From contig CAMBUJ010000007.1 of the NCBI GenBank assembly GCA_945871005.1, positions 1-42,590 of the forward strand: a stretch of 42,590 bases of DNA. Direction: 5' to 3'. Below are positions 11,589 through 20,294 of the stretch, piece after piece; position 1 is the first letter of the stretch, and the number at the start of each line of letters is the position of its first letter. The DNA comes from Opitutus sp. GAS368 (GTDB lineage Bacteria > Verrucomicrobiota > Verrucomicrobiia > Opitutales > Opitutaceae). The notes under the pieces are model-generated. The model was not told the DNA's origin and searched no databases. It saw only the letters and a program-made list of their open reading frames with translations. Position numbers and translations under genes: made by a program.

Positions 11589-11975
11589 TCAGGCCCTCTT
11601 GGCGGGCTTGAGCGGCAGCACCGCCTGAATCGCCGTCACCAGCTCGGCCGGCGTGAACGGTTTTTTAACCATCCCGTTGATCCCCAGCGCCGTGATCTTC
11701 GGCAGCACTTTGTGGTCGGTGGTCGACACCAGCATGATCACCGGGATCAGGCTCAGCTCGGGGTGGGACTTGAGCATGGTGAGCATTTCTAGCCCATCCA
11801 TGGTCGGCATGCTCACGTCGATGACCAACACTTTGGCCAGGTTGCGCTCGAGGGCGAACAGGCCGGTGAACCCGTTAGTCGCTTCGTGAACCACGCAGTC
11901 GAAGGGCGCCAGGGCTTGTTTGGCGATCAGGCGCACCGCTTTGGAGTCATCAATGACAAGAATAGGAATAGGCAT
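11589..11975 (-). CDS. Single-domain response regulator (CheY-like)
   Basis: A 128-residue receiver domain with no output domain. The acidic pair is Asp9-Asp10 (ILVIDDSKAVR), the phosphoacceptor is Asp53 (VLVIDVSMPTMDG), and the conserved lysine is in MVKKPF (about residue 104-105). Start MPIPILVIDD at 11975. The frame stays open upstream, but that part is antisense to the MarC gene and is not real. It lies 2.3 kb from the chemosensory operon on the opposite strand and may be its diffusible CheY. That is an inference, because single-domain receivers also serve other kinases. Confidence 0.9.
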   Translation of the reverse strand: MPIPILVIDDSKAVRLIAKQALAPFDCVVHEATNGFTGLFALERNLAKVLVIDVSMPTMDGLEMLTMLKSHPELSLIPVIMLVSTTDHKVLPKITALGINGMVKKPFTPAELVTAIQAVLPLKPAKRA

Positions 11976-12170
11976 GGGACAGGGAGCGTACGGGCGGGCG
12001 GTGGCGAGTGGAGTGACGGGTGAGGCGGCGCCGGGACGGGCGCGCGCAGGACGTAAGGTGCTATCAGCGGGAGTCGGGCGAACTTGGCAAAGAGATAGCG
12101 TGGGCCACGCGAAGATTATGATGGGTGCGCGCTTGGCAGCGCGGGCAGTTGCGGTCAAATTAGCGTCAAG
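11976..12170. other. Divergent intergenic region, nothing recognised
   Basis: Gap between the divergent response regulator and MarC genes. It is GC-rich on the left and slightly less so near the MarC start. Neither promoter is clear by eye, and no hairpin or repeat stands out. Confidence 0.4.
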
Positions 12171-12806
12171 ATGAGCCTTCTGGAATACGCCCTGTTGGCC
12201 TTCGGTTCGCTTTTGGCGATCGTCGATCCGCTCGCGGTGATCCCCGCCTTCGTGACGATGACGGCGCGCGATTCGCGTCCGGCGCAAATCCGCATGGCCC
12301 GGCTGGCCTGTGCGACGGCGGCGAGTGTACTGACCCTCTTCGTGTTGACCGGACCGTGGGTGTTTAAGCTCCTCGGCGTGACCCTGCCGGCCTTCCAGAT
12401 TGCGGGTAGCATTCTGTTGTTTTGCATCGCCCTCGACATGATGTACGGACGGCGCACGGCCTCGCGGGAAACTCTGGAGGAGGTCGAGGCGGGGGTGGCC
12501 AAGGACGACATTGCGATCACGCCGCTCGGGGTGCCGATGTTGGCCGGCCCGGGGGCGATTTCGGCAGTGTTGATTCTGCGGGCCCAGGCCCAAGGCAGTG
12601 CGCAGCATTTCGCGCTGCTCGGCTGTATTGGGCTGGTCTGCCTAGTGGCGTATTTCACCCTGCGCTTCGCGGTGTACGGGTCGAAGTGGTTAAACCCGCT
12701 GGTGTTGAAACTGACCGCGCGGCTCATGGGGCTGCTGCTGGCCGCAGTGGCCGTGCAGTTCGCCCTCAACGCGTTGCGTCAATTGGGCGTGCCGCTGCAG
12801 TTCTAA
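12171..12806 (+). CDS. MarC-family integral membrane protein
   Basis: Member of the MarC/YchE/YhgN (UPF0056) family, multi-pass inner-membrane proteins of unsettled function once linked to multiple antibiotic resistance. At 211 residues it is the usual family length. About six hydrophobic segments are visible, starting at LLEYALLAFGSLLAIVDPLA. Family-typical stretches include the N-terminal IVDPLAVIPAF, a cytoplasmic acidic/basic loop (YGRRTASRETLEEVEAG), ITPLGVPMLAGPGAISAVL, and a C-terminal RLMGLLLAAVAVQFALNAL segment. The ATG at 12171 is the natural start and no Shine-Dalgarno precedes it. The stop is 11 bases from the convergent MerR-type gene. Confidence 0.9.
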   Translation: MSLLEYALLAFGSLLAIVDPLAVIPAFVTMTARDSRPAQIRMARLACATAASVLTLFVLTGPWVFKLLGVTLPAFQIAGSILLFCIALDMMYGRRTASRETLEEVEAGVAKDDIAITPLGVPMLAGPGAISAVLILRAQAQGSAQHFALLGCIGLVCLVAYFTLRFAVYGSKWLNPLVLKLTARLMGLLLAAVAVQFALNALRQLGVPLQF

Positions 12807-12817
12807 AAACGCCGCCT

Positions 12818-13858
12818 TCAGGTCAGTACGGCCAGCGCTGGGCGGGCAACGGGAAGCGGCGCGGCGGCGAGGGTGGTCGCGGCGGGGGCGGGCCGCGGGG
12901 CGGCTTGGGCTGGTTGGGGTTGCAGCCGCAGTTCGTCGAGGTGGGCGGCCACGGCCGTCAGGCTGTCCGGGGTGGCTGCCCCGATGGCATCAAGGGTTTC
13001 CTGATACGCACGGGCGCCGCTCCCTCCCACCAGCAGGTGCAGGCCGGGGGGCATCAGGCGTTTCATTTGCTTGAGCCGGTAATGCAGCGCCGCGTCGTCG
13101 AGCGGGTAAATGATGCTCAGCGCGATCGCCTTGGCTTGGCGGCGCACGGCGGCCCCGACGATGTCGGTGACGGGCAGGTTGGGCCCGAGGTAGGTGGCGT
13201 CCCAGCCGACGTTTTCGGCGGTGGCGGTGACCAGCAGTGCGCCGAGTTCGTGGACTTGGCCTTGGGGGGTGGCGACCACGATGCGCGGGGCGTTCTCGGT
13301 GCGGGAGTACTGGTGATAAAAACTCCCGAGAAACTTCCGCACGGTGGCCGTGAAAATGTGTTCGTGGGTGGCGAGCAGCGTTCCCGCCCGCCAGCCTTCG
13401 CCGAGGGCAATGGCAGTCGGCGCGATCACCCACTGCAGTAGTCCTTGCCAGCCCAGCACCACGTCGGCCCGCTCGAGGATTTCGTCGATCGCCCGGGCGT
13501 CGATCCGCTCGAGGGCGGCCATGATTTCGGCCTTAAAGCCCTCGGCCTTGTCCTGCGCCGAGACGGGCTGGGGCTGAGGCGGGGGCAGAGCGGCCGGTGT
13601 CGCTTCAGCCGCTGCGGCTGCCAGCAGGTGCTGGAGGGCGGCCTCGGGTAATTGGGCCACCGAGCTGATCGGGTGGCCTAGCCGGGTGGCTTGGGCAACC
13701 AGGGTGAGCCGTTGCACGTCCGCCGCCGAATACTGGCGGTGCCCGCCCTCCGAGCGGGCAGGGTCAAGCAGTTGGTAACGCTTTTGCCAGGCGCGAATTA
13801 CATGGGCGGTCAGCCCGGTTTGGGCCGCCACCACTCGAATGGTGCTTCCTTTGGGCAT
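12818..13858 (-). CDS. MerR-family regulator with B12-binding domain (CarH/LitR-like photoreceptor)
   Basis: A 346-residue transcription factor. The MerR winged helix-turn-helix is at residues 6-70 (TIRVVAAQTGLTAHVIRAW, GGHRQYSAADVQRL), followed by a Pro/Ala linker, a four-helix cap (about 105-185) and a cobalamin-binding Rossmann domain (190-300). The cap has Trp156, nine residues, then Glu166-His167. This is the Wx9EH signature of CarH/LitR proteins, which use adenosylcobalamin as a light sensor: in the dark the tetramer binds DNA, and light breaks it. The lower-ligand His is in QVHELG (His203), where Gln replaces the usual acidic residue. The second cobalt-binding His next to the Trp in Thermus CarH is Arg157 here. 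It is divergent from the cheW operon, with shared heptamer repeats in the gap. The C-terminus is a low-complexity Ala/Pro tail. Confidence 0.88.
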   Translation of the reverse strand: MPKGSTIRVVAAQTGLTAHVIRAWQKRYQLLDPARSEGGHRQYSAADVQRLTLVAQATRLGHPISSVAQLPEAALQHLLAAAAAEATPAALPPPQPQPVSAQDKAEGFKAEIMAALERIDARAIDEILERADVVLGWQGLLQWVIAPTAIALGEGWRAGTLLATHEHIFTATVRKFLGSFYHQYSRTENAPRIVVATPQGQVHELGALLVTATAENVGWDATYLGPNLPVTDIVGAAVRRQAKAIALSIIYPLDDAALHYRLKQMKRLMPPGLHLLVGGSGARAYQETLDAIGAATPDSLTAVAAHLDELRLQPQPAQAAPRPAPAATTLAAAPLPVARPALAVLT

Positions 13859-13901
13859 GGTCTTACTCTGTTCAACTACGAGGTTTTATCAACCCTTAAA
13901 G

Positions 13902-14063
13902 TTAGACAGGTAGAAACGCTGGAGTCGCTTTTTGAGGTCTAATTTATTTCTTATCAAAATGTGATTAAGCATTTTAACATGGATTATGCCTTTTTTTGCG
14001 AGGCAATGAATTTTGTTTAGATATTTGTCTAATATTTCTTGACTCGGGTTGGGGGTTGTCTAA
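13902..14063. promoter_or_regulatory. Cluster of TGTCTAA heptamers, candidate operators
   Basis: Exact copies of TGTCTAA are at 13902-13908 (reverse), 14026-14032 and 14057-14063. Near copies are GGTCTAA at 13936-13942 and TTAGATA (reverse) at 14017-14023. The pair at 14017-14032 forms an imperfect palindrome, TTAGATATTTGTCTAA. They lie in the unusually AT-rich gap between the divergent MerR-B12 regulator and the chemosensory operon. Inference: they are binding sites of that regulator. Confidence 0.5.
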
Positions 14064-14067
14064 TTAT
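14039..14067 (+). promoter_or_regulatory. Candidate promoter of the chemosensory operon
   Basis: TTGACT (14039-14044) followed by a 16- or 17-base spacer and TAATTA/AATTAT (from 14061/14062) resembles a sigma-70 promoter. One TGTCTAA heptamer overlaps the -10 element, as expected for a repressor site. The transcript would have a leader of about 225 bases before cheW, holding an AAAGTA/TACTTT inverted repeat at 14134-14153. Confidence 0.45.
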
Positions 14068-14298
14068 CAGCCGTGTTGAAGGTGCTTGTTGGCAAGCGTC
14101 CTTTTTCTTTAAAAATTCAAAAGTTATTAATTTAAAGTAGTTTAATTTACTTTGCTGGTTTTCTGGCGGTGTGCGGGCCCGTTAAGTGAGCAGCGTTTGG
14201 GTGAAGTTGGCCTGTCTAAGTTTACGCCAGTTGTCGTCACCCCGTTTTTTGTCCCCACCTTTCCGCGTTCCAACGGTTTTGCCTTACCCCCAAATCCC
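14068..14298 (+). other. Long AT-rich leader of the chemosensory operon
   Basis: This stretch has no convincing gene. The frame of cheW stays open back to a TTG at 14152, but the translated extension does not resemble CheW. The first half is strongly AT-rich, with an AAAGTA-N8-TACTTT inverted repeat at 14134-14153. The second half returns to normal GC. No known riboswitch was recognised. Confidence 0.4.
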
Positions 14299-14793
14299 AT
14301 GTCTCAACCGACGCAGCTCCTCACCTTCCGTACTCAGGGTCGCTGGTATGCCTGCGACTTGCTCTGGGTGCGCGAGATTCTCCGCCAGCCGAGCATCACC
14401 CCAGTCGATCAAGCGCCGCCCATTGTGCGGGGGCTGATTCACCTGCGTGGCCAGATTCTCACCGCCCTCGACCTCGACCTGCGGCTGGGTTGCGCCGGCG
14501 GTGCGGAAAAGCCCTCGGCCTGTTGTATTGTTTTTAAAACCAGCGTGGAACTCGGGCGCCTTGCCCAGCAGCCCGAGTCGGCCGAGCAGGCCGGTCAGGA
14601 TTTGCTGGGTATCCTGGTCGACGAGATCGGCGATATTCTGAGCCAGCAGGAGCGGGTGCTGCCGCCGCCCCCGGAGAGCCTCTCCGGGTTGGATCCCGCC
14701 TGCATTGCCGGGGTCATCCCGCGCCCGGCCGGGCTGGTCAGTTTGCTGCATGTCCATGCTCTGCTTCGGCCCACAACCGCCACGGCTGCCTAA
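14299..14793 (+). CDS. CheW-like chemotaxis coupling protein
   Basis: A 164-residue CheW-domain protein, the adaptor that joins chemoreceptors to the kinase CheA in cytoplasmic arrays. Recognisable elements are QLLTFRTQGRWYACDLLWVR at the start, EILRQPSITPVDQAPPIVRG, LIHLRGQILTALDLDLRLG, the central ILVDEIGDIL strand, and a final VSLLHVHALL. The ATG at 14299 gives the expected family N-terminus. It is the first gene of a four-gene set cheW - STAS - cheA - mcp with gaps of 13, 5 and 104 bases, so co-transcription is likely at least through cheA. Confidence 0.92.
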   Translation: MSQPTQLLTFRTQGRWYACDLLWVREILRQPSITPVDQAPPIVRGLIHLRGQILTALDLDLRLGCAGGAEKPSACCIVFKTSVELGRLAQQPESAEQAGQDLLGILVDEIGDILSQQERVLPPPPESLSGLDPACIAGVIPRPAGLVSLLHVHALLRPTTATAA

Positions 14794-14806: not shown

Positions 14807-15118
14807 ATGAATGCTTTGTATTCCGATACCACGCTGACGCTCACCTTCGACGGCGATTTGACCTCGACCACCGTGGTTTCGGTGCGCGCCGAACTGATCG
14901 AGCTGCTTAAAAACTACCCCTCGGCCACGGCGCTGGTGGCTAATTTGTCTCAAGTCGGCCAGGTCGATTCGATGGGACTGAACCTGCTGATCGGCCTCTA
15001 CCGGGAGGCCCATTTTAGGAAAATCCCCTTCCGCATCGAAAACGCCTCGCCGAGCGTTCGCCGGCTGTTTGGGCTGCTCAATCTCAACGAGCGCTTCGGG
15101 GTCTCCGCCGCCGCTTAA
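14807..15118 (+). CDS. STAS-domain protein (anti-anti-sigma-like) in chemosensory operon
   Basis: A 103-residue single STAS domain related to SpoIIAA and to STAS proteins of partner-switching systems. The start is ATG 14807 (MNALYSDTTLTLTFDGDLTS). The conserved loop reads GQVDSMGLNLLIGLY. Asp54-Ser55 matches the position where SpoIIAA-type proteins are phosphorylated, so regulation by a serine kinase is possible, but no such kinase is in the window. It lies between cheW and cheA, five bases from the cheA start. STAS genes within chemosensory operons are uncommon in the textbook systems, and its role here is not known. It may be an output or modulator switched by CheA signalling. Confidence 0.85.
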   Translation: MNALYSDTTLTLTFDGDLTSTTVVSVRAELIELLKNYPSATALVANLSQVGQVDSMGLNLLIGLYREAHFRKIPFRIENASPSVRRLFGLLNLNERFGVSAAA

Positions 15119-15123
15119 CCGCC

Positions 15124-18093
15124 ATGAGCGCCGACGAAACCGAAATGCTCGGCCTGTTTGTGCAGGAGGCCAATGAGCACCTTGAAACCCTCGAGACCGA
15201 CCTGGTCCGCCTGGAGACCTGCCCGAACGACGCCGCTTTGCTCAACCGGTTGTTCCGCGCGGTCCACAGTATCAAGGGCACGGCCGGTTTTTTCGGGCTC
15301 ACCCCGATCACCGATCTGGCCCACCTGATGGAGAGCGTCATGGCGCTGCTGCGCGACGGGCGCCTCCACTCCGATCGCGAGCTGATCAACCTGTTCCTCG
15401 GCAGTACCGATCACCTCCAGGTGATGGTGGCCGCCCCGGATCGCGCCGCAGAGGTCGATACCCGCCAGGCGCGCGCCGCCTTGGCCACGCGCCTGGATTT
15501 TGAGGCCCCGGCCAAGCCGAGCGCGGGCGGTGCGCCGGTTTTGCCGGCCTGCCTGCGGGGCTTCTCGATCGACCCGGAGTTGGTCCGCTCCAGCCTGCGT
15601 CACGGCCACCACTTATATGTGATCGAGCTGCAACTGACGGCCGACATCGAGGCCGCCGGGCAGACCCTGCTGGATTATTTCCGGGATGTGGAGTCGCTCG
15701 GCCTGCTGATCGCCGCCGCCACGGCGATGAGTGAGGGCGGCTTGTCCGAGGCGGTGGCCGGCGAGCTACAGTGCACCCTGTTGTTCGCCACCGCCATGGA
15801 GCCCGACCTTTTGCTGAGCGCCTTTAACCTGCCCGCAGACCGGCTGACCTGCCCCGACCAAGCGGTCTGGAGCGAATGGCTCGCCACTCAGCCCAGTCTT
15901 GTTCCTGCCGCTTCTTTTGCCTCGTCCACCCCGCCTCCGCCTGCCGCCGAGGTCACGCCCCAAACCCCCCAACCCATCATGAGCACCCCTACGCCTGTTC
16001 CGGCTCCTGCTGATTCACCCGCCGCCGGTGGCCCCGCCGCCCGCGTCAAGACCGAGGAAACTGTCCGCATCTCCGTTTCGCTGCTCGACGCCCTGATGAA
16101 CTTGGCCGGCGAGATGGTGTTGGGGCGCAACCAGTTGCTGCGCATCGCCGCCCCAACCCGGGGCGGCGCGGTCACCCCGGGCCAGGAAGGGCTCGCCGGG
16201 ATTGTGCAGGGCATCAGCGGCGTGACCACCGACTTGCAGCGCACCATCATGCGCGCCCGGCTCCAACCCGTCGGCGGATTATTCGGACGCTTTAACCGGA
16301 TCGTACGCGATCTGGGTCAGAAGCTGGGCAAGGAAATCGAGCTGGAAACGGTGGGCAACGATGTCGAGTTGGACCGCGCCTTGATCGAGGGATTGTCCGA
16401 TCCGCTCACCCACCTGATCCGCAATTGCGCCGACCACGGCATCGAGCCGGCCGCCGAACGCCTGCGTCTCGGTAAACCCGCCGCCGGCAAGGTGCGCATC
16501 TCTGCCGCCCACCTCGCCGGGCGGGTCCAAATCGAGGTGCGCGACGACGGCCGCGGGCTCAACCCCGACCTGCTCAAGGCCAAGGCGGTGGAAAAGGGCG
16601 TGCTCGCCGCCGACCAGGCTGCCCGTTTGACCGTGGCCGAAGCCTGGCAGTTGATCTTTGCCCCCGGTTTTTCCACCGCCGCGGTCGTCAGCGACGTCTC
16701 CGGTCGCGGGGTGGGCATGGACGTGGTCAAAACCAACATCGAGCGGCTCGGCGGGCGCGTGGAAATCGATTCGGTCCTCGGCCACGGGACCGCGCTGATC
16801 ATCCGGCTGCCGCTCACGCTGGCGATTATCCCCGCCCTGATCGTGGGCTGTTCGACCCGCCGTTTTGCGGTGCCACAGCTCAACTTGCTGGAGATCGTCC
16901 GGCCGAGCGCCGAGCGACCGATCGAGCGCTTCGGCGGCTCCCAGGTCATCCGGTTGCGCGAAGAGCTCTTGCCGGTGATTAACTTGTCCACGCTGCTCGG
17001 CCTGCCCACCCGTACGGCCGACGAGGCCCCCGGGTATGTGTTGATCCTTAAGCTCGATAACCGGCGTTTCGGCCTGCAAGTCGAGTTGGTCGCCGACACC
17101 GAGGAAATTGTGGTCAAGCCGCTCGGGCGCCACCTGCAAGGCACCGGGTTTTACTCCGGGGCGACCCTGCTCGGCCAGGGCGAGATCGCCCTGATTTTGG
17201 ATTTGGCGGGCATCGCCGCCGGCCGGTTGCCCTCCGCCGAGGCCTCGGCCACCCGGGCGCTGACGCGGGAGGCGGCGCTGATCGCCACCGAGCGCATCCT
17301 CTTGTTCCGCGACGGCTCGGCCGAGACCTTTGCCCTCCACATCGCCAATATCGGGCGCATCGAGAAAATCGCCTCCTCGCGCATCGAGCGGATCGGCGGC
17401 CACGATTTCTTTCGCCAGGCCAATGGCCCCACGCTGCGCCTATTGCGCATTCAGGATCACCTGCCGGTCGCCCCGGCCGGCGCCTTGCCCGCCGAGGTCC
17501 ACATCATCGTGCCGCGCCTCATTCATCACGCGGTGGCGCTCATCGCCGAGCAGATTTTGGATGCGACCGACTTGCCGGTGGACTCGCTCGACACTGCCTC
17601 ATTGCGCGGCCCGGGAGTGCTCGGCACGGCGAGCCTGCAGAACCGCCTGACCGTGGTGGTGGACTTGTACAGCCTGCTCCAAGCCGCCGGCATCGATGCC
17701 AAACCGCCCAAGGTCGGCCAGCTTTCGTCGCTGCGCGTGCTGCTCGCCGAGGACACCGCCTTTTTCCGCGAGGCCGTCCGCCGCAGTCTGACCGAGGTCG
17801 TCGGCAGCCTCGATATCGCCGAGGATGGCGAGGCCGCCTGGGCGCGGCTGCAAACCGGCCATTACGACGTGTTGATCACCGATCTGGAAATGCCCCGGCT
17901 CAACGGCTTCGAGTTAACCGCCCGCGTCCGCGACGACGCCCGCCTGAAGGCCCTGCCGGTGATCGCCCTGTCGGCCCGCGACTGCGACGACTTCCATGCG
18001 AAGGCCAAGGCGGCCGGCATCGACCATTACGAAACCAAACTCGACCGTGAGCGCCTATGCCGCGCGCTCACCCAAGTACTTTCCCCTCACTAG
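15124..18093 (+). CDS. CheA-type histidine kinase fused to a receiver domain
   Basis: A 989-residue chemosensory kinase. Order: Hpt domain (1-110) with phosphoacceptor His48 in [14 protein letters not shown]; a variable linker (110-305) that includes a Pro/Thr-rich stretch; dimerisation helices ([20 protein letters not shown], about 315); HATPase (about 420-565) with N box [14 protein letters not shown]1 box DDGRGL and G2 box GRGVGMDVV; two CheW-like domains (about 566-700 and 720-855); and a C-terminal receiver (870-989) with phosphoacceptor Asp920 in [12 protein letters not shown]. No obvious P2 (CheY-binding) domain is seen. The tandem CheW-like modules and fused receiver resemble hybrid CheA proteins of non-flagellar or multi-array systems, where the receiver can act as phosphate sink. 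No CheR, CheB, CheZ or CheD gene is in the window. Confidence 0.94.
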
Positions 18094-18197: not shown

Positions 18198-20294
18198 ATG
18201 AAACTCAACCTCACTGGCCGTTTCGTCCTCATCCTGCTTGCCGTCGGCCTGATCCCCCTGTTGATAATCGCCGGACTTAGCCTGAAATCCACCGCCAAGA
18301 TCGCCAATGACATCGACTTGCGCCTGAAGACGGCCGCCGGCGGTTCGCTCGAAACCATTGAGCGCAACTTCTTTGAGCGCTACGGCGATGTCCAGGCCTT
18401 CGCGACCAATCACGTCCTGTTCGACAACGACCTGAGCCAGCCGGCGGGCCGGCAAAAACTCACCGAGGCGATCAACACCTACGTGCGGCTCTACGGGTTG
18501 TACACCCTGAGCATCGTTACGGACGCCCAAGGCAAGGTGATCGCCACCAACACTGCCGACGCCGCCGGCAAGGCCGTCGATACCAGCTTTATGCTGGGCA
18601 AAGATTGCGCCAAGTCCGGCTGGTTCCGCGACGCCCGGGACGGCCGCTTCCTCGCCTCCGACGTGCTCACCGGCACGGTGGTCGAGGACGTGGGCATTGA
18701 CCCGGACGTGGTCCGGCTGCGCGGTGGCAACCACCTCACAGTGGGCTTCTCCGCCCCGATCATGAGCCCCAAGGGCGAGTTCCTCGGGGTCTGGCGCAAC
18801 CTCGCCGACTACACGCTGATCGCTGAAAGCATCATCCAGCAGGACTGGCGGCGCATGGAGGCATCGGGTTTTGCCAGCACCGTGATCCTGCTCGTCAACA
18901 AGGACGGCACCCTGGTGACCCGCTACAATCCGCACCACATCGGCAGCAAGGATCTGCGGCCCGATTACAACGAGGTAATGAAGCTGAACCTGGCCGCCAC
19001 CAACGCGAGCGTAAAGGCGGCGATCGCCCCCAATTCATTTGGCACCTCCAACTATTATTCCGCCGAATATAAGACCGAAATGATCGCCGGTTATGCGAAG
19101 TCCGCTGGTGCCCTCGGTTATCCGGGGCTGGGCTGGGCGATCGTGGTGCAAGACGCAGAGGAAGAGCTGCATGCCGGGGTAATCGCGGCCAACCGGGCCA
19201 CTTACCTGACCGTGGGCGTTTCGCTCGTGCTGCTACTCGGCGTCGCCTTCCTGGTGGCACGCTCCATCACCCGGCCGATCCAGATGTGCGTGGGCGCCAT
19301 GGAGAAACTCGCCAAGGGCGATCTCACCACCCAGATCGAGCTGGACCGCTCCGACGAGTTGGGGGTCCTGGCCAAGGCGATCAATGTGTCGATTGCCAAC
19401 CTGCGCCAACTGGTCGTTAGCCTGAGTAAGTCGGCTTCCGATTTGCTCAGCGCTTCCCAAGTGCTCACCGAGACCGCCAACAACCAAGCGGCCACCGCCG
19501 AGGAAACTACGGTGCAGGCCAACACCGTTGCCTCGGCCGGCGAGCAGTTGTCCAGCAACTCGAAAGCCATGGCCGCCTCGGCCACCCAGATCACCCAATC
19601 GACCACCACGGTGGCGGCGGCCATGGAGGAAATGTCGTCCTCCATCCAAGAGGTCGCCCGCAACTGCGCCAACGAAAGCGAGATCGCCCGCAAGGCCGAC
19701 ACCCAGGCCCGTCAGACCCGTGACTTGATGGGCAAACTCGACGAGTCGGCCCGCCAGATCGGCAAGGTGGTGGAGTTGATCAACCGCATTGCCGAGCAAA
19801 CCAACCTGCTGGCGCTCAACGCCACGATCGAGGCAGCCAGCGCTGGCGAAGCCGGCCGTGGGTTCGCGGTGGTCGCCAACGAGGTCAAGGAACTGGCCCG
19901 CCAGTCCGCCGCCGCCACCGAAGACATTCGCAAACAGGTTTCGCTCATCCAGGACAACGCCGGGGCCTCGATGCGCTCGCTCGACGAGGTGGCCAAGGTG
20001 ATCGAGCAGGTCTCGCATATTTCCTCGTCGATCGCCGCTTCGGTCGAGGAGCAGTCGGCCACGACCTCCGAGATCGTCGGCACGGTGCACAAGGTTTCCA
20101 CCGCGACCAGTGATCTCTCGCTCAACGTGCAGCAGACCTCCGAGGGTGCGTCCGAGGTGGCCCGCAACATCTCAGGCGTTTCCCAGGCCTCGGCCGATGC
20201 GGCCAAGGGCGCGGTCCGGATTAGTACCAGCGCCACGCAACTCGACGGACTGGCCACCACGCTGGGGCAACTGGTGGGGACCTTCAAAGTCTAG
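18198..20294 (+). CDS. Methyl-accepting chemotaxis protein with periplasmic Cache domain
   Basis: A 698-residue transmembrane chemoreceptor. The first membrane helix is at residues 7-29 ([20 protein letters not shown]). A large periplasmic ligand-binding region of about 300 residues has double-Cache character ([12 protein letters not shown]-like repeat, [11 protein letters not shown], later [13 protein letters not shown]). A second membrane helix is at about 334-354 ([18 protein letters not shown]), then HAMP ([20 protein letters not shown]) and a long signalling coiled coil. The tip contains [35 protein letters not shown]. The C-terminus (QLVGTFKV) lacks the CheR-tethering pentapeptide. The start at ATG 18198 places the membrane helix correctly; the frame is open further upstream into the cheA end, but that is not plausible. 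Ligand unknown; Cache domains often bind small organic acids or amino acids. Confidence 0.93.

Follow-up and report, generated by a model that had tools for sequence, protein, structure and literature searches.

A CarH/LitR-like regulator as a putative controller of a duplicated chemosensory operon in Opitutus sp. GAS368

We propose that a MerR-family regulator of the CarH/LitR type in Opitutus sp. GAS368 has, by rewiring, come to control a chemosensory operon that is itself a duplicate, a reading that we hold to be slightly better than even. The two lie head to head in the stretch of DNA analysed here, hereafter the window (42,590 bp; contig CAMBUJ010000007.1 of assembly GCA_945871005.1, positions 1 to 42,590), in which the regulator gene (12818–13858, minus strand, a 346-residue open reading frame, ORF) diverges from a cheW-STAS-cheA-mcp operon across an AT-rich gap of 440 bp (13859–14298; 40.7% GC versus 62.6% for the window), the arrangement described in an earlier note made from the sequence. 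CarH/LitR-like regulators are known chiefly for carotenoid and photodamage genes. A conserved repeat in the gap that matches the published CarH half-site makes control of the che operon likelier here. The protein family and its residues, the conserved operator-like sites, and the co-occurrence of the regulator with this che copy are all observed, and the last is confined to two genomes, so the claim is one of lineage-specific rewiring.

The regulator and its cobalamin-binding signature

The regulator consists of an N-terminal MerR helix-turn-helix (residues 6–70), a helical cap (about 101–179) and a Rossmann B12-binding domain (192–295), the architecture of CarH and class I LitR, which is seen in the Pfam matches (MerR_1 57.2 bits; B12-binding 52.1 bits), the structural model and the fold comparison. 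The top solved relatives by sequence are the Thermus CarH/LitR chains 3whp and 5c8d (E about 1e-24), and the predicted fold resembles those of Thermus CarH and of CtMerR. These domains, relatives and the signature described below bear out the CarH/LitR identity given in the earlier note, and the residues named there (Trp156, Arg157, Glu166-His167 and His203) stand where it put them, except that the Gln it placed at 202 is at 201. Hence the Wx9EH motif of the cap is intact (W156, E166, H167), and the protein has all four elements of the published light-responsive signature (PMC11796333). Two elements, G153xxW156 and E166H167, lie in the cap, and two, G200xxH203 and G225xxxP229, in the Rossmann domain, with the assignment of GxxxP to residues 225–229 being our own reading.

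Relatives were taken from a first family search, in which 29 of 200 genomes (that of the window included) gave matches, leaving 28. An alignment of 24 sequences (A2; 22 of the 28 relatives, the window protein and that of a sister genome, the same set as for the structural model) shows His203, Trp156, Glu166 and Gly206 to be invariant and His167 nearly so, which suggests selection on the cobalamin pocket. Among 30 aligned Opitutaceae rows, Arg157 is found in 22 and His at that position in none, while Gln201 is found in 29, with Glu in L062. Both residues are therefore common among the relatives, and they were rejected as peculiarities of the window protein.

Repeats between the regulator and cheW

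The gap contains four copies of TTAGACA, a sequence that conforms to TnnACA, the CarH half-site of the literature, and the rest of the window has none. Site 1 (13902–13908, plus strand) is near the start of the regulator gene, and sites 2 (14026–14032; TGTCTAA on the plus strand), 3 (14057–14063) and 4 (14213–14219) are on the minus strand, the last being 79 bp before the start of cheW. Dinucleotide-shuffled versions of the gap, 20,000 in all, contained TTAGACA at most twice. The 3.48-Mb genome contains 30 copies versus 98 of a reversed control, and the presence of four of the 30 in this gap has a probability of about 7e-12 under a uniform model, for a motif picked after being seen.

The sites are conserved in the sister genome (G203; L030, contig CANIXX010000028.1, and G203:C28 were taken as one genome and counted once), whose regulator is 82% identical. 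Its gap agrees with that of the window at 27 of the 28 bases within sites and at 256 of the other 412 (binomial tail 3e-5). Site 1 is within a 13-bp identical run (13896–13908) and site 4 within one of 12 bp (14212–14223), while site 3 reads CTAGACA in the sister. The longest identical run (14024–14044, 21 bp) contains site 2 together with TTGACT, the −35 element of a candidate cheW promoter (TTGACT-17-AATTAT, 14039–14067, plus strand, 9 of 12 matches). Site 3 overlaps the −10 of this promoter, and the −35 falls in the interval from site 2 to site 3, although the promoter is weak by itself, with two promoter-like sites in the gap versus 0.7 expected from shuffles. Between this candidate promoter and cheW, a hairpin followed by a T-rich run (14081–14111) is partly conserved in the sister and is a possible attenuator. 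The terminator-like hairpin itself (14081–14100) does not clearly exceed chance (two found versus 1.0 expected; fold z −1.24, with 29 of 200 shuffles as good), and an Rfam scan of the window returned tRNA only.

A genome-wide TTAGACA regulon was rejected, as 18 of the 26 copies outside the gap lie inside ORFs of at least 90 residues. Elsewhere, copies cluster between genes only on contig C6, where three of four sites are intergenic and the adjacent ORF is presumably a transposase. A repeat-bearing region of that contig (L116:1990–3100) holds two copies, and a third is just upstream of a short ORF with a secreted appearance (2011–2268). One further copy is upstream of the gene for the succinate-CoA ligase beta subunit.

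Half-sites of the same kind are enriched upstream of the related regulators, counted in 23 relatives (L042, L043, L052, L063 and L064 were dropped as they have no usable upstream DNA). TTAGACA is present within 250 bp upstream in 15 of these, with 25 sites versus 0.65 expected. Around 32 sites, with the window and its sister included, partial TnnACA matches (at least three of the four bases) are most frequent at an offset of +11 (12/32), followed by −11 (8/27). The CarH-style 11-bp tandem, TnnACA-N5-TnnACA, is found within 300 bp in 14 of the 23 relatives (0.19 expected), and TnnACA-N5-TTGAC(A/T) in ten (0.03 expected), nine of these pointing away from the regulator, to the partner gene; both expectations are over 25 loci, namely the relatives plus the window and its sister, which have neither arrangement. 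Across nine genomes, TAGACA-N5-TNNACA has 11 matches versus four for the reversed control. Those at the regulator locus are two of two in each of G003, G124 and G065, two of three in G006 and none of two in G099, with zero matches in the window genome, G203, G178 and G164. These counts lead to a predicted operator for CarH-like proteins of the Opitutaceae, TAGACA-N5-TTGACA, the second half of which would double as the −35 element.

The partner genes of the related regulators are of other types than che, many of them of a kind that protects against damage by light. They were read in 22 relatives (L049, with only 481 bp, was left out), and because a choice of ORF by length can pick the antisense strand, the partner genes were re-read and ten genes scanned. 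The commonest divergent partner is a fasciclin protein (12/22: L037, L038, L039, L041, L044, L047, L054, L056, L057, L058, L059 and L061; six scanned by Pfam and six assigned by BLAST cluster), followed by a gene run with an FAD amine oxidase (8/22; four scanned and four assigned by cluster), in whose scanned members DUF1365, a cyclopropane-fatty-acid (CFA) synthase, DUF1295, a fatty-acid desaturase or a polyketide cyclase is present. DUF1365 and a LigT phosphoesterase account for one each, so that 21 of 22 partners are of the fasciclin or FAD-oxidase/DUF1365/CFA type, and none is che. Fasciclin genes are light-related, and those of the Opitutaceae are candidates for control by these regulators, since the 11-bp tandem lies between the two genes in five of the twelve cases (L037, L041, L044, L047 and L061).

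The duplicated chemosensory operon and its genome context

The operon facing the regulator comprises cheW (14299–14793; Pfam CheW, 78 bits), a STAS-domain gene (14807–15118, from the ATG at 14807; 46 bits), cheA (15124–18093), whose product has Hpt, dimerisation, HATPase, CheW and C-terminal receiver domains, and a gene for a methyl-accepting chemotaxis protein (MCP; 18198–20294, beginning MKLNLTG) with MCPsignal and HAMP matches, all on the plus strand. The MCP also matches dCache_1, but at 29.8 bits this falls short of the 45 that Pfam requires. CheA, CheW and an MCP thus occur together in one operon. On the other side of the regulator, the window contains a response-regulator ORF (11589–12608, minus strand) and a marC-type gene (12171–12806, plus strand), and the true start of the former is probably later since the long ORF overlaps marC on the opposite strand.

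The window genome has three cheW-STAS-cheA loci. The copy that faces the regulator is orthologous in the two genomes with the regulator (CheW 90% and CheA 86–94% identical), and the window genome (G000:C104), its sister (G203:C26) and G164 (C1) have in common, at 90–94%, a further operon with about 70% identity to this one. The regulator-facing operon is a second, duplicated copy. TAGACA is absent from the 500 bp upstream of cheW at each of five paralogous loci, G000:C103 and G178:C103 among them, and the paralogs of about 70% identity are without a regulator. As the regulator is likewise present only in the window genome and its sister among 13 genomes of the genus, the regulator, the sites and this che copy co-occur in those two. 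The search for CheA in the genus scored 64 first-look candidates per genome, and three of the 13 genomes are less than 90% complete. The further loci of the window genome are on contigs C104/C112 (L143/L144) and C103 (L117). The C103 locus gives the impression of a rearrangement, in that a short CheA match is immediately followed by an MCP-like piece. In the sister, cheA is split over two overlapping frames (L030:5738–5952), which may reflect either a fault of the assembly or a genuine break in the frame.

A search of 252 genomes of the family listed 21 at E ≤ 1e-60, and among the matches listed only the sister exceeds 46% identity. In a tree from which L043, L063 and L064 were left out and to which Thermus CarH and three Actinoplanes rows were added, the che-paired regulators form a separate branch (99/97) beside the main Opitutaceae group. 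Conservation of the gene pair in other Opitutaceae, a check put forward in the earlier note, therefore fails beyond two genomes, and the pair is not a general feature of the family.

The window genome (91.7% complete) has a gene for a CobA-type adenosyltransferase and six matches to flagellin domains. Its photolyase match begins at a contig end, so that the promoter is unreadable.

Mode of control and comparison with known systems

From these features we infer a cobalamin cofactor, repression as the sign of regulation, and light as the signal. In the dark, adenosylcobalamin would sit between the Wx9EH cap and His203, and the regulator would form an oligomer on the TTAGACA half-sites of the shared gap. 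The bound oligomer would cover both the TTGACT promoter of cheW and the start region of the regulator's own gene, keeping both low. Cleavage of the Co–C bond by light, or scarcity of adenosylcobalamin, would release the protein from the DNA and allow the extra chemosensory array to be produced. In its most complete form, to which we give somewhat less than an even chance, this would be a self-contained and co-inherited light-gated module, an adenosylcobalamin photoreceptor repressor with a private, duplicated cheW-STAS-cheA-mcp array, in which illumination decides whether the array is built. Such a module would represent a slow, transcriptional photobehaviour, unlike photoreceptors that signal directly into CheA, and pairing with a duplicated che operon would mean that a light or B12 switch is transferable to behaviour. 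The proposal of the earlier note, a photoreceptor in control of a chemosensory array, is thus strengthened as to the type of protein and the likelihood of che control, while the cofactor and light stay inferred.

A number of observations weigh against control of the che operon by a light-sensing CarH/LitR-like protein. In the region reading G200-Q201-V202-H203-E-L-G206, the classic D/ExHx2G motif of B12 binding is incomplete, with Gln201 in place of Asp/Glu, although His203 and Gly206 are kept. Arg157 after Trp156 leaves the protein without the second His, that of the light-state bis-His ligation, which may weaken its coupling to light, and the Thermus H132A variant photolyses but mostly stays tetrameric in light (PMC10442372), although an earlier report cited there observed its disassembly. 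The score against the NCBIfam CarH equivalog NF052513 (113.3 bits) is below the cut-off of 400, and no cobalamin riboswitch exceeded the cut-off of 31.5 bits in four genomes, with near-misses of 30.0 and 29.3 bits in G203 and G164. In terms of DNA, the 11-bp tandem TnnACA pair is absent from the gap and from that of the sister, as is TAGACA-N5-TNNACA from both whole genomes, and all of the four sites but one point towards the regulator, opposite to the orientation in most relatives. The repeat alone is only moderately surprising because some four-letter 7-mer was repeated four times in 13 of 1,500 shuffles of the gap, and it is the other, independent tests of the sites that weigh most. Finally, the pairing with che has a single sister in its support.

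There are three other explanations, of which the first two are both unlikely. The regulator might control the che operon but sense adenosylcobalamin status or another ligand, with Arg157 uncoupling photolysis from DNA release, as the behaviour of Thermus H132A would suggest. Gln201 is consistent with this, as is the presence of CobA where no PduO-type adenosyltransferase was found in the window genome, for which reason the supply of cofactor may depend on corrinoid. However, CtMerR is light-responsive with Arg at the same position (PMC11796333), the clade retains the full signature, and some of its partner genes resemble light-induced LitR regions of Pseudomonas (PMC9758184).

Comparably doubtful is autoregulation, or action elsewhere, by a regulator whose own promoter is all that the TTAGACA sites serve and which has che as a neighbour by chance. 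The strand of sites 2 to 4, which read towards the regulator, the lack of a tandem operator over the che promoter, and the fact that nine of 23 relatives also have a site no more than 25 bp from where the regulator gene begins all agree with such a role, but site 4 is conserved close to cheW, the 21-bp identical run spans both site 2 and the rightward TTGACT, and the two genomes in the genus that have the regulator are also those with this che copy. Targets elsewhere are also disfavoured by the location of most other copies inside ORFs and of the sole other intergenic cluster on C6. Very improbable is a repressor that binds no cobalamin and is controlled by redox or by another protein, like class II LitR with LOV proteins, since Gln201 and the low CarH score, which would fit it, are set against the invariant or nearly invariant pocket residues and a B12-binding domain that class II LitR, a four-helix bundle only, does not have (PMC9758184).

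Rewired control of the che operon, our preferred explanation, has both parallels and contrasts among known proteins. In Thermus thermophilus CarH/LitR (5c8d, 5c8e, 3whp), His follows Trp and Glu is in the ExH motif where the window regulator has Arg157 and Gln, the operator is an 11-bp tandem of TnnACA that the gap does not have, and the neighbours are carotenoid genes rather than a chemosensory operon. A His after Trp is found in many CarH proteins but not in all (PMC9304148), and CtMerR of Chloracidobacterium thermophilum (8jbs/8jbt; 24–25% identical to the window regulator in the Foldseek alignment) likewise has Arg (PMC11796333). Also compared were Pseudomonas LitR regions with class II proteins, those of PmlR1 (P. 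mendocina) and PplR1 (P. putida). The light-induced pmlR1 region (FAD oxidoreductase, UfaM, PhrB) resembles the FAD oxidase/CFA neighbours of some relatives (PMC9758184), whereas the PplR1 consensus, T(G/A)TACA-N12-TGTA(C/T)A, differs from the TTAGACA sites, and PmlR2 acts with a LOV protein, unlike the mode proposed here.

No report of a CarH/LitR-like regulator paired with a che operon was recognised among the open-access papers that literature searches listed. The earlier note knew of no description of such a target set, which is indeed unusual, but by analogy it has a loose precedent in Rhodobacter capsulatus, where the B12 photoreceptor AerR has CrtJ as its partner, and three MCP genes and a homolog of cheW are affected by CrtJ (PMC5362033). 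Blue light lowers chemotaxis genes in Vibrio cholerae, which no longer responds to it when ChrR and a MerR protein are missing (PMC5241685). The regulator-che pair offers a testable case of target switching at the level of the operator. As in the system proposed here, the AerR/CrtJ pathway connects a B12 photoreceptor to chemotaxis genes, but AerR is an antirepressor of CrtJ and the effect on motility genes is regulon-wide via CrtJ, in contrast to the dedicated divergent pair of the window.
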